A DNA stretch of 64,000 nt, taken from positions 1 to 64,000 of the forward strand of contig NZ_CAMRAN010000004.1 of NCBI RefSeq assembly GCF_947039875.1, given 5' to 3'. Positions 16,779 to 20,216 of this stretch are shown here, one piece after another. How positions within the stretch are numbered: position 1 is the stretch's first letter; each line of letters begins with the position of its first letter. Below the pieces are notes generated by a model. That model saw nothing but the letters and a program-made list of their open reading frames with translations, had not been told where the DNA came from and made no database searches. A program made the translations under genes and the position numbers. Source of the DNA: an uncultured Photobacterium sp. Lineage in GTDB: Bacteria; Pseudomonadota; Gammaproteobacteria; Enterobacterales; Vibrionaceae.

Positions 16779-16953
16779 GAATGATTATCTTATAATGAAT
16801 AAAACGGAGTATTCTAGAGGGATAACAATTAAAAATAAAGTAAGGTGTTTTTAATACTAAGATCTATGCATAAATAACAGTGATTTTCTGGTAATAAAAA
16901 GGCTAATGAATTGATAGTGCTATTATTTAATATGTTAATAGATCGTGTTAATT

Positions 16954-16991
16954 AAAAGCGATACCTATATTTAATGGTTATAGATATCGCT
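16954..16991 (-). terminator. Terminator of the trpS gene
   Basis: In the minus sense a 13-bp stem with one G-U pair (AGCGATATCTATA / TATAGGTATCGCT) with a 9-nt loop is followed by TTTTAATT, starting 5 bases after the stop codon. Confidence 0.75.
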
Positions 16992-16996
16992 AATGA

Positions 16997-18028
16997 TTAA
17001 AACAAATTCAAACCAAAGGCAGTTTTAATATCCGTTAAAACTTGTTGGGTTTGTTGGTTAGCATGTTCGGTTCCTGCTTTTAGGACTTCAATGAGATAAT
17101 CTTGGTTATTTAAATAATCACTACGACGTTTACGTATTGGTGATATTAGATCTTGTAAACATTGTTCTAAGATTTTCTTGGTTGTTCCATCACCTAAACC
17201 TCCTTGGCGATATTGCTGCTTTAACGTTTCAATATAAGCCCCATCTGGGTGGAAAGCATCAAGGTAAGTAAACACAATATTACCCTCAACGCAGCCAGGA
17301 TCTTCAACACGGAGATGATTAGGATCGGTATACATTGATTTTACTGCTTGTGAAATCGTCTTACTATCAGCACCTAATGTGATGGTATTCCCCATTGATT
17401 TAGACATTTTATTTTTACCGTCAGTACTTGGTAAGCGAGCGACTTTGCTTAATAGCGGTTGACATTCCACTAAAATATTCTTACCTGCAATAGTATTTAT
17501 TTTTCTAACAATTTCATTGGTTTGTTCAAGCATTGGTAATTGGTCATCACCGACAGGGATTAAGCTTGCGCGAAATGCTGTAATATCAGCGGCTTGAGAT
17601 ATTGGGTAAGTTAAAAATCCAGCAGGAATAGAACGGCCGAAGGCTTTAGACTGAATTTCACTTTTAACGGTAGGGTTACGTTCTAAACGTGCAATCGAAA
17701 CAATGTTGGAGTAATACATGGTTAATTCAGCGAGAGCAGGAATGGCAGATTGAAGACAAATAGTGGTGAGTTTTGGATCAATACCAACCGCTAAATAATC
17801 AGCGACAACATTAAGAATATTGTCTGCGATCTTTTGTGGATTATGGCCATTATCGGTAAGACCTTGCATATCAGCAACGAGAATGTTTTGCTGGTATTGA
17901 TGCTGTAATTGTACTCGTTGTTGTAATGAACCAACATAATGGCCAAGGTGAAGCTGACCTGTAGCACGGTCACCAGTAAGAATAATAGGTTGATGTTGAT
18001 TTGGTGCAATTGATGCTTGAGTGTTCAT
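16997..18028 (-). CDS. trpS: Tryptophanyl-tRNA synthetase, auxiliary copy under attenuator control
   Basis: The 343-residue class I aminoacyl-tRNA synthetase charges tRNA-Trp. It shows the HIGH-like motif TGDRATGQLHLGHYVGS near the N-terminus and KMSKS in DGKNKMSKSMGN, with the family segments SQAADI and PVGDDQLPMLE. I start at ATG 18028 because GGAG lies 9 bases upstream and the product then begins just before the catalytic core. An in-frame ATG at 18097 lies inside the attenuator hairpin and is rejected. The upstream region encodes a Trp-Trp leader peptide and a terminator, so transcription is probably raised when charged tRNA-Trp is scarce. The isolated position suggests a second copy, since the housekeeping trpS of this group usually lies elsewhere; this window cannot prove it. 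Confidence 0.9.
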   Translation of the reverse strand: MNTQASIAPNQHQPIILTGDRATGQLHLGHYVGSLQQRVQLQHQYQQNILVADMQGLTDNGHNPQKIADNILNVVADYLAVGIDPKLTTICLQSAIPALAELTMYYSNIVSIARLERNPTVKSEIQSKAFGRSIPAGFLTYPISQAADITAFRASLIPVGDDQLPMLEQTNEIVRKINTIAGKNILVECQPLLSKVARLPSTDGKNKMSKSMGNTITLGADSKTISQAVKSMYTDPNHLRVEDPGCVEGNIVFTYLDAFHPDGAYIETLKQQYRQGGLGDGTTKKILEQCLQDLISPIRKRRSDYLNNQDYLIEVLKAGTEHANQQTQQVLTDIKTAFGLNLF

Positions 18029-18039
18029 ATGCTTCTCCG

Positions 18040-18109
18040 AAAAAGTGCGCCGGAGAGGTGGGGAAATACGGATAAGATTAGGCGTATTCATTTGCAACCT
18101 TCCGGCGGC
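18040..18109 (-). promoter_or_regulatory. Transcription attenuator (terminator hairpin) in the trpS leader
   Basis: In the minus sense the leader contains GCCGCCGGAAGG (18109-18098) and CCTCTCCGGCGC (18058-18047), which pair through a GCCGGA/TCCGGC core, followed directly by ACTTTTTC; this is an intrinsic terminator ending 12 bases before the trpS start codon. Alternative pairings can disrupt it: GCGGC near the leader-peptide end pairs with GCCGC of the 5' arm, and TTTTGGTGGC, which includes the two Trp codons, can pair with GCCGCCGGAA. In addition AAAAAGATAAC at the leader-peptide start is perfectly complementary to GTTATCTTTTT just after its stop (18196-18206 with 18126-18136). I have not computed a fold. 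Confidence 0.7.
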
Positions 18110-18137
18110 AAAATGAAATAGAAATAAAAAGATAACT

Positions 18138-18209
18138 CTATTCAGCGCCGCTCGATGAAGAACGCCACCAAAAGAAAAGGGATGAGATAGTGCTTGTTAT
18201 CTTTTTCAT
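18138..18209 (-). CDS. trpS leader peptide with tandem Trp codons (23 aa)
   Basis: The short frame starts with ATG, has AGG 8 bases upstream, and encodes MKKITSTISSLFFWWRSSSS followed by GAE and TAG. Two adjacent TGG codons at residues 14-15 are the classical sensor of Trp-tRNA charging, as in trpL of E. coli. It ends about 30 bases before the 5' arm of an intrinsic terminator that precedes trpS. A ribosome stalled on the Trp codons would change leader pairing and allow read-through into trpS. The peptide itself probably has no other function. Confidence 0.75.
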   Translation of the reverse strand: MKKITSTISSLFFWWRSSSSGAE

Positions 18210-18466
18210 ATGATGAACCTATCAAAATAATTAAATGAAACAAGTTGTTTTATTTGGTAAATAAATGATGTTTTTTATTGCTTGTAAATCCAAGTAATTG
18301 GTTTGTTGAGCGTAGTGAATGTTTTTATATGAAAATAGAGATATCTGAATATATTTTTATACTGCGGATTTTATAAGTGAAAAAGATTAATTGTGGTTTT
18401 TCTTTTTTTCTCTTTATTTTATATTTCTATGTTGGCATTCCTTTGCTCGTAGTCTTGATATTATTA

Positions 18467-18688
18467 TCATATTAAAAACCAACCTCGACGTTCTTTTCGA
18501 TAGATAATACCTTGAGATTCTAACTGTAGTAGTGCTTGTTTTACTGTCACTCGGTTAGTATTAAAGATATCACTTAACTCTCGTTCTGATGGTAATCGTT
18601 TTGATTGAGTAGCAAATAACCCTCGGTCAATTTGTTGAAGAATCGTGTCACAAATTATTGAGAGTGATGATGGCTGTTGTGTGCTCAT
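18467..18688 (-). pseudogene. GntR-type DNA-binding domain, effector domain missing
   Basis: The 73-residue product is a complete GntR winged helix-turn-helix (ILQQIDRGLFATQSKRLPSERELSDIF ... VTVKQALLQLESQGIIYRKERRGWF) that stops exactly where family members with a UTRA effector domain continue (usually RRGWFVxPPR...). Three stop codons follow in the same frame and I recognise no UTRA sequence downstream, so the gene is probably a truncated remnant. A functional DNA-binding-only protein cannot be excluded. It lies 258 bp upstream of the trpS leader peptide in the same direction, but nothing shows a functional link. Confidence 0.6.
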
Positions 18689-19079
18689 TGTTACCTTTGA
18701 TTATCATTGTTAAAGCTGTACTTATACCGAATAGCATAACAGTGGTATGTCATTATTGTGTCATTACTGCCAAGGTTATTGGTTGTAATGGACTAAAAAG
18801 GATTATTTCAGCACTATATTTTATTGGAAAGATACGTTTCATTTATCGTTAATATGCATTTTGTTTTTGTTATATGTATTTCATATGCTTATTTACTGTT
18901 AAATGTAATTTATCTATAAAACAATGGGTAACATGATTTTTAATATCAAAGTGTAATTTAACAAAATTGATCACTGTTTTATTATCGTTTTTTTAGATTG
19001 ATATTGACGGTTTTTTGCCATGGATTTTTTGTATCGATCTCTCAATTATGCAGCAACACAATTAATTAGAGATTTAATC
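18689..19079. other. Intergenic region upstream of the YadA-like adhesin
   Basis: AT-rich, with no credible gene. The promoter of the adhesin must lie here. An in-frame ATG at 19020 precedes the chosen start of the adhesin but lacks a ribosome binding site and a signal peptide at its N-terminus. Confidence 0.3.
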
Positions 19080-20216
19080 ATGAAAATCTTTCCGTTTGTT
19101 TTATGCACTACATTACTAAGTACATCTGCATTTGCGGCAAATACTAATATTGTAATAAATACACCGAATATTGGCGGTCAAGATCCAGTCATAAATGGCA
19201 CAATTTCAAGCGGCAATGTAGCTATAGGTAGAGATTCATCTTTTCAAGGAAGTAGTAATCTTGTGATTGGCTCTAATGCAAATGCGGCCGATACATCTAT
19301 TGCTATTGGCAATCATTCTTCAGCTCAGGGTGAATCAGTTGTTCTAGGTGCTGGTGCTGTTGCTATTAATAACGGCATTGCCATAGGTAATCAGTCGTAT
19401 TCTGATGATGGTCAGGTATCTATTGGTACTCAATATAAACAGCGTCGTATTGAAAATATGGCAGCAGGTCAAAAAGATACTGATGGGGTTAATGTTAGTC
19501 AACTTACGCCATTAAAAAATAATATAGCGGCTAATCAAGCGAAAATTAAAACCGTTGAGTCGGCGGTAGTGAAAAACTCGTCCAATATAACAATGAATAA
19601 AAATGATATTGTGACTAATAAAAATACAATAATGACGAACACATCAAGCATCACCACCAATACTGGTGCGATTAATACTAATACATCAAATATAACGACT
19701 AATGCTGGAATGATTAATCGTAATGTAACTACTATCAATAATAATACGACTCATATTCGTACCAATACAGCTAATGTAGAGCACAACACGACTGAGATAA
19801 CGAATACGAAGCAATTGGCGTCAACCAACCAGACGAATATTAGTAAAAATACGAATGGGATAACAACTAACCGTAACAATATTCAACATAATTCTGATCG
19901 TATAGACAATATTGATTCTGATAATAAAACTTACGTTGATAATAAGTTTAATCAATTAAAGACAGATATCTATCAAGTAAGAAAGCGTGCTGATGCTGGC
20001 ACAGCTTCTGCTATGGCAATGACACAAATCGCAGCACCACTGAATGGATATAAATATAATATTGGTATTGGTATTGGTTCATATGGTGAGCAAGCCGCAA
20101 CAGCTATTGGTGCTAAGTTTAGAGTAAATAAAAGTACGACCATTGGATTAACATCTTCGTATGATTCTCAGCATAATCTTGGTACATCTGTTGGTGCTAA
20201 CTGGTCATTTAGATAA
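19080..20216 (+). CDS. YadA-like trimeric autotransporter adhesin
   Basis: From ATG 19080 the 378-residue protein has a signal peptide (MKIFPFVLCTTLLSTSAFAA). A short YadA head follows, with the left-handed roll repeats VAIGRDSSFQGSSNLVIGSN, SIAIGNHSSAQGE and GIAIGNQSYSDDG (residues ~40-120). A neck (RRIENMAAGQKDTDGVNVSQL) leads to a stalk of about fifteen 7-residue repeats of the type xxIxTNT (e.g. ITTNTGAINTNTSNITTN). The C-terminal ~75 residues are the YadA membrane anchor (GIGIGSYGEQAATAIGAKFR ... VGANWSFR). Three chains form one 12-stranded barrel in the outer membrane. It is a compact adhesin; the ligand is unknown. Monocistronic. Confidence 0.9.
   Translation: MKIFPFVLCTTLLSTSAFAANTNIVINTPNIGGQDPVINGTISSGNVAIGRDSSFQGSSNLVIGSNANAADTSIAIGNHSSAQGESVVLGAGAVAINNGIAIGNQSYSDDGQVSIGTQYKQRRIENMAAGQKDTDGVNVSQLTPLKNNIAANQAKIKTVESAVVKNSSNITMNKNDIVTNKNTIMTNTSSITTNTGAINTNTSNITTNAGMINRNVTTINNNTTHIRTNTANVEHNTTEITNTKQLASTNQTNISKNTNGITTNRNNIQHNSDRIDNIDSDNKTYVDNKFNQLKTDIYQVRKRADAGTASAMAMTQIAAPLNGYKYNIGIGIGSYGEQAATAIGAKFRVNKSTTIGLTSSYDSQHNLGTSVGANWSFR

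Follow-up and report, generated by a model that had tools for sequence, protein, structure and literature searches.

A conserved Trp-Trp leader with five mutually exclusive helices upstream of an auxiliary tryptophanyl-tRNA synthetase gene in Vibrionaceae: a probable translational attenuator

Attenuation through a leader peptide, driven by a shortage of charged tRNA, is generally taught as a way of controlling transcription in biosynthesis operons. The locus described here raises the question of what such a leader does in front of a synthetase gene, and by which route. In the window (the whole 64,000-nt stretch of Photobacterium DNA that was analysed), trpS2 occupies 16997..18028 (-) and encodes an auxiliary tryptophanyl-tRNA synthetase of TrpRS-II type (TIGR00233 trpS, 239.6 bits), 99% identical to the TrpRS of Photobacterium piscicola. 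We place its start at the ATG at 18028, chosen by the Shine-Dalgarno (SD) sequence GGAG at 18038-18035 and by the N-termini of orthologues. The 23-codon leader with FFWWR that the original prediction described before a trpS gene is the ORF MKKITSTISSLFFWWRSSSSGAE at 18209-18138 (-), which sits directly 5' of trpS2. Its Trp codons, TGG TGG at 18165..18170 (-), are the proposed stall site. The gene is the second of two trpS genes in the genome; a check for another copy, suggested by the original prediction, finds the housekeeping trpS (TrpS1) at C3:74465-75454, 31% identical to TrpS2. The end of the window's leader is atypical. Near relatives such as L005 have a stop right after WWRSS (TCATAG), which in the window reads TCG (TCATCG), and the ORF is 5 codons longer. 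The window's element may be drifting; a similar change is seen in L006.

The leader is real, and more widespread than could be seen from one window. Counting the own genome each time, we find trpS2 orthologues in 40/52 genomes of the genus (E <= 1e-100), 141/329 of Vibrionaceae (E <= 1e-90) and 66/394 of the order (E <= 1e-70). An upstream ORF with two adjacent Trp codons (WW) is present at 237 of the 241 trpS2 loci, a set in which some genomes appear twice, once from each of two collections, and which has 159 distinct element sequences; L105 and L147 are without it, and L115 and L240 are contig ends. Conservation of the WW codons among orthologues, on which the original prediction had staked its case, is thus what we observe. 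Among 27 further, mostly more distant loci, the WW leader is present in 20 and absent from seven (L271-L276, L282); the leader of L278, with a stop further on, was missed by the terminator-scan script and is present on inspection. Named hosts include Photobacterium, Vibrio, Moritella, Pseudoalteromonas, Shewanella, Alteromonas, Colwellia, Amphritea and Cocleimonas.

For the RNA analysis, the 159 distinct elements were filtered by similarity to 96 non-redundant ones and aligned by sequence alone (alignment A1). Only TGGTGG elements were admitted, and the invariance of WW inside A1 is by construction. A covariance model built on these 96 elements, the window's among them (R1), finds a single element in the own genome, at 82.6 bits. 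The next best match, at 14.6 bits (C22, L256), has only an unrelated-looking WW ORF, on its other strand; by R1 the element has no other target in this genome, and the genome's trp operon leader was not located. In Vibrionaceae, R1 gives 145 matches in 143/324 genomes, 140 of them on the strand of a trpS2 match and immediately 5' of it, with gaps of -8 to 140 nt. The other five lie at cut or broken trpS2 genes, one ending with its contig (G099), three broken (G230, G283, G185) and one split by an IS66-type transposase ORF (G182). Three genomes have trpS2 and no R1 match: G088, G103 and G315, the last at a contig end. In a thin draw of 369 genomes of the class, under stricter filters, R1 matches the own genome only. 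No family of Rfam 15, which we take to include Trp_leader, reaches its gathering score in seven loci; for 16800-18800 of the window, the one match up to E = 1 lies on the other strand (16931-17033), below its gathering score. The broken and interrupted genes, in four Vibrionaceae genomes (L289-L292), keep a leader RNA that still scores well; L292 has 33 matched trpS2 residues, followed by the ORF of an IS66-family transposase. Two genomes (G225, G266) have two trpS2 loci each (L060, L157, L101, L155), with a leader at all four and one copy in each genome that looks truncated.

How is the leader ORF started? The AGG that the original prediction took for its ribosome-binding site lies, in the window, inside the extended -10 box TGATAGGTT (18224-18216) of a predicted promoter at 18216..18243 (-), with the -35 box TTGTTT at 18243-18238. 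Few leaders have an SD before the ATG at all: a 4-base one is found in 3/96 and a 3-base one (such as AGG) in 13/96, so we drop the site. Compared position by position, the 96 leaders conserve a -35 TTG and an extended -10 (TGnTAnnTT) whose spacing to the leader ATG hardly varies, and a leave-one-out motif match places the -10 within 2 nt of its fixed place in 80 of them. Because the boxes keep this distance, we predict that transcription starts on the A of the ATG or beside it, and the leader mRNA is probably leaderless. Sinorhizobium meliloti trpL offers a parallel, its RNA beginning with the start codon of a Trp leader peptide (PMC7298713); that leader controls trpE(G) by a terminator, and its 5' end is reported whereas ours is predicted.

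Competing pairings were also part of the original prediction, which looked to covariation of the stems in orthologous leaders as their check. By eye we define five helices on A1, consecutive ones mutually exclusive, all on the minus strand. Against dinucleotide shuffles, folding of 18030-18215 gives z = -2.99; minimum free energy structures of single genomes, which in part show other pairings, were set aside. H1 (18149..18164) pairs CGTTCT at 18164-18159 with GAGCG at 18153-18149, so that the codons after WW are its 5' arm. Over the 96 elements 95.6% of its cells are paired, and both sides change in 4/6 pairs; in the window the sixth pair is lost (C at 18154). The codon after WW is TGC (Cys) in four elements. 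In three of these (L203, L218, L249) the partner has changed to A, and in the last one, L136, a G-U pair remains; the same pair is broken in L123, L137 and L146. H2 (18105..18151) pairs GCGGC..TGAA at 18151-18141 with TTCA..GCCGC at 18117-18105, with 99.2% of cells paired in its GC part and 88.9% and 81.1% in its AU part, and it excludes both H1 and H3. H3 (18087..18117) pairs TTCATTTTGC at 18117-18108 with GCAAATGAA at 18095-18087 around a loop that holds CCGGAAGG. It shows both-side changes in 6/7 pairs, with 62.0% and 74.2% of cells paired, and is the weakest helix on A1 because indels shift it in an imperfect alignment. H4 (18047..18109) pairs GCCGCCGGAAGGTT at 18109-18096 with CACCTCTCCGGCGC at 18060-18047, and in it the SD-like GGAAGG takes the anti-SD arm (91.1% of cells paired, both-side changes in 10/13 pairs). 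H5 (18034..18056) pairs TCTCCG at 18056-18051 with CGGAGA at 18039-18034 and hides the trpS2 SD (90.8% of cells paired, both-side changes in 5/7 pairs). The family consensus is CGCUCU:AGAGCG for H1, GCGGC..GAA:UUC..GCYGC for H2, a helix around a GGAAGG loop for H3, GCYGCYGGAAGGUA:UAUCUCCRGYRGC for H4 and UAUCUCC:GGAGAUA, containing the trpS2 SD, for H5. Exclusion follows from shared residues: H1 and H2 share GCG, H2 and H3 the 5' part of segment 3, H3 and H4 GCYGC and GGUA, and H4 and H5 the anti-SD arm. We considered a second mini-ORF after GGAAGG (ATG at 18091-18089, in frame with trpS2). Its ATG is absent from the Vibrio elements that were read, and we therefore read GGAAGG as an anti-sequester segment.

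The covariation exceeds what shuffles give. For H1+H3+H5, 84.6% of cells are paired against 79.3 in shuffles, with 86 both-side-change cells against 27.4; for H2+H4' the values are 91.9% against 87.6 and 93 against 33.9, and for the full H4 91.1% against 83.9 and 125 against 46.6. None of these six values is reached by any of 500 shuffles. Counts of further pair types carry less weight: 5, 14 and 110 of the 500 shuffles match or exceed them for H1+H3+H5, H2+H4' and H4, respectively. When the register is slid, at most 62% of cells are paired; in two of these controls other counts come close to or pass the true register, with 76 both-side cells against 86 for H1+H3+H5 slid by +1, and 23 further pair types against 21 for H4 slid by -3. 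The aligned elements are related by descent, and all covariation counts overstate independence accordingly.

Because a helix that sequesters the SD and a helix that would release it both covary, control is most likely translational rather than by the usual transcription stop. We consider it probable that the element attenuates translation of a spare TrpRS and is itself governed by the ribosome on the leader; it would work as follows. Transcription would begin at the conserved promoter and probably give a leaderless ORF. With Trp-tRNA charged, the ribosome would reach the leader stop and mask segment 2, or H1 would form behind it. With H2 prevented, H3 would fold and keep GGAAGG unpaired in its loop, and the anti-SD segment would pair with the trpS2 SD (H5), leaving trpS2 off. 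When charging fails, the ribosome would stall at the two Trp codons and cover the 5' arm of H1. Segment 2 would then pair with segment 3 (H2) and block H3, GGAAGG would be free to pair with the anti-SD segment (H4), and the exposed SD would turn trpS2 on. Trp starvation or natural inhibitors of TrpRS would be the expected inducers.

The original prediction was of a different effector, an intrinsic terminator ending just before trpS. A terminator scan finds none at the window's leader, and a strict hairpin-plus-U scan matches 0/96 elements, the window's included; both scans cover loops of 3-8 only. A run of 5 U at 18044-18040 does lie two bases after the 3:4 helix (H4), which closes a loop of about 35 nt, and the window may have a long-loop terminator there. 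Within the 12 nt that follow H4, 20/96 elements, the window among them, have a stretch of at least 5 U, and 76 lack one. For this clade, a conserved terminator is not supported as the effector, nor is the AGG site. The predicted ribosome-mediated control of an auxiliary trpS by Trp codons is supported by the conserved WW, the covarying stems and the separate housekeeping trpS.

Relatives of two other families also carry WW leaders (L259-L270, L284, L285), and those of f25 read WWCC. In the f19 family, whose TrpS2 are 61-67% identical, the H3 hairpin passes the terminator scan in five of nine relatives, two of them (L264, L265) with a strong U run behind it. Because these hairpins pass the scan, we read H3 as the off state. 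In such relatives H3 is, or resembles, a terminator, and the same architecture may act on transcription there too. A rival reading, which overlaps with our preferred explanation, is dual control: H3 or H4 would partly terminate transcription and H5 would block translation of the read-through. It would agree with several f19 elements that on inspection also have SD-pairing segments, and with U-rich stretches after H3 in Vibrio elements. Yet no U run follows H3 in the window and the Photobacterium elements inspected; the strict scan is empty for all 96 elements; the best terminator-scan match in five f25 relatives is H1, not H3; and an automatic helix search returned no long H5 in the f19 elements. 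We regard dual control as a serious possibility, somewhat short of an even chance.

Classical transcription attenuation, with H4 and its U run as the terminator and the 2:3 helix as the antiterminator, would explain the U run of the window and its near relatives and would follow the familiar trp logic. It seems unlikely, since the scans (with their short loops) are empty and 76 of the 96 elements have no such run, H5 would hide the SD in the on state, and the covarying H3 would be left without a role.

For the preferred translational reading, the direction of the switch was also approached by folding. Equilibrium folding with ribosome footprints gives no separation, the probability that the SD is free, P(SD free), being 0.137 with the ribosome stalled and 0.129 with it at the stop. 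In forced-state energies, H2+H4' averages 7.3 kcal/mol above H3+H5, and the full H4 2.4 above. A co-transcriptional simulation, in purpose-written simplified code at 25 ms per nt, separates the states in part. Over the 96 elements mean P(SD free) is 0.321 for a ribosome stalled on the first Trp codon, compared with 0.126 when it has reached the stop; stalled against stop, it goes up by >0.2 in 45 elements, goes down in 6 and stays within 0.2 in 45. A control with shuffled downstream sequence, for 48 of the 96, gives 0.335 against 0.327 (12 up, 8 down; p = 0.70). Compared with the stop, a stall at the second Trp codon raises it in 24 and lowers it in 3 of 42 elements simulated, and without a ribosome it is 0.156 (n=43). 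The simulation thus favours the polarity in which a stall frees the SD. The six contrary elements are L004, L075, L102, L225, L227 and L244. L004 is the window's own, with 0.00 stalled and 0.57 at the stop. Because its usual stop is lost, termination takes place 15 nt further downstream; in the simulation, with the ribosome at this shifted stop, the WW segment is freed and pairs with segment 3.

The opposite polarity, in which a stall leads to H2 and H5 with trpS2 off and charged tRNA leads to H4 with trpS2 on, draws on equilibrium energies, in which H2+H5 has an average advantage of 5.3 kcal/mol over H2+H4'. We think it very improbable: it makes the covarying H3 useless or harmful, the simulation goes 45 to 6 the other way, and it would be physiologically senseless for a synthetase. 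Least probable of all, by a little, is a peptide that senses free Trp or an inhibitor as a nascent chain, the TnaC-like type of leader, rather than tRNA charging; WW is conserved and the next residue is only Arg (84), His (8) or Cys (4) of 96, but the residues before WW vary freely and, with the stem kept by a paired change in three of the four Cys elements and by G-U in the last, pairing seems to count for more than the peptide sequence.

What would a charging sensor serve here? The original prediction of a reserve synthetase gains support from the enzyme and its distribution. Among solved proteins, TrpS2 is closest to 1yi8 (371 bits) and 2a4m (369 bits, titled TrpRS II), both presumably from Deinococcus radiodurans, and scores 143 bits for 1i6k and 118 for 8i1w, housekeeping-type structures that we take to be from Bacillus and E. 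coli. By these scores TrpS2 is of TrpRS-II type, closer to solved TrpRS II than to housekeeping TrpRS. The D. radiodurans enzyme is likewise a second TrpRS; it is linked there to nitric oxide synthase and is not known to us to have an attenuator. At the site that we take to be equivalent to Bacillus H43, from a TrpS1 alignment and the Bacillus sequence, TrpS1 of the own genome has His, and all 142 TrpS2 with >300 aligned residues (from the 241 loci) have Gln. Without a His at this position, TrpS2 may by sequence belong with the indolmycin-insensitive TrpRS. The reported resistance change at H43, a site implicated in sensitivity to indolmycin, is to Asn (H43N; PMC4899734); we found no mention of Gln there.

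The gene is patchy among genomes and broken in several. We searched for synthetases of the family in 17 genomes, chosen partly for their leaders and not at random. Six of them (G088, G503, G376, G662, G605, G355) have only tyrS and a TrpS2-type enzyme; two of the six are 92-93% complete, where a trpS1 may have been missed. In all six, with a TrpS2-type enzyme as the sole TrpRS found, the WW leader is absent (L271-L274, L276, L287), and the leader of G503 is a remnant with one Trp. In the other 11, TrpS1 is judged present by the number and size of matches, confirmed for G103 only; nine have the leader and two have none, G103 and G482, the TrpS2 of the latter being 43% identical. The Gln at the H43 site, the patchy and broken gene and the absence of the WW leader in the six genomes where TrpS2 is the sole TrpRS found lend support to a reserve synthetase.

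Several known systems resemble the element in part. Enterobacterial trpL shares the WW-Arg leader, the 1:2 and 2:3 pairings and a stop that lets the terminating ribosome mask segment 2; the trpS2 element differs in its class of gene, in that no strict terminator was found, and in an extra H4/H5 layer on the SD. Translational attenuators of ermC type share a ribosome stall in the leader that frees a downstream SD, whereas the stall there is of a drug-bound ribosome and here is proposed to be for lack of charged tRNA; the likeness drawn is one of mechanism. Another such system is that of Streptomyces, where Vecchione and Sello are reported to have described, in 2010, ribosome-mediated transcriptional attenuation of an auxiliary indolmycin-resistant trpS. 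It shares with our case a Trp-codon leader before one of two trpS genes, a spare synthetase and alternative structures controlled by a stall. It differs in being transcriptional, judging by the title; here, in gammaproteobacteria, one helix sequesters the SD and five helices form a relay. Attenuators are predicted at trpS in some Streptomyces (PMC1262725). In the open papers searched, neither titles nor the openings of abstracts deal with a trpS leader in Vibrionaceae, and the trpS2 element would be a form of leader-peptide attenuation for which we found no description in the open literature.

Taking every part together, we incline, with a little better than even confidence, to an undescribed cis-regulatory RNA family that is widespread among marine gammaproteobacteria. 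In it, a stall at WW in a leaderless ORF would run through a five-helix relay to an SD mimic that unmasks the SD of a TrpRS-II gene, making it a tRNA-charging sensor for an inhibitor-tolerant synthetase kept mainly beside a housekeeping TrpRS, with a terminator in relatives of another family. A large family (143/324 Vibrionaceae genomes searched) seems to read a charging signal through translation of an auxiliary synthetase. The relatives with terminator-like hairpins provide natural material on how an attenuator moves between transcription and translation. The family also bears on how leader ORFs start without an SD, and on whether spare TrpRS genes are maintained in marine bacteria as a guard against natural inhibitors of the enzyme.

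Around the locus, no operon partner of trpS2 is seen in a comparison of 80 named loci with flanks of 3 kb at most, where six window neighbours each recur in 3 or 4 loci. Upstream of the leader, 18467-18688 (-) is a 73-residue ORF with only a GntR DNA-binding domain, probably a remnant. Further on, 19020-20216 (+) encodes a protein like the YadA-type trimeric autotransporters, with a repeated N-T-N-T stretch.
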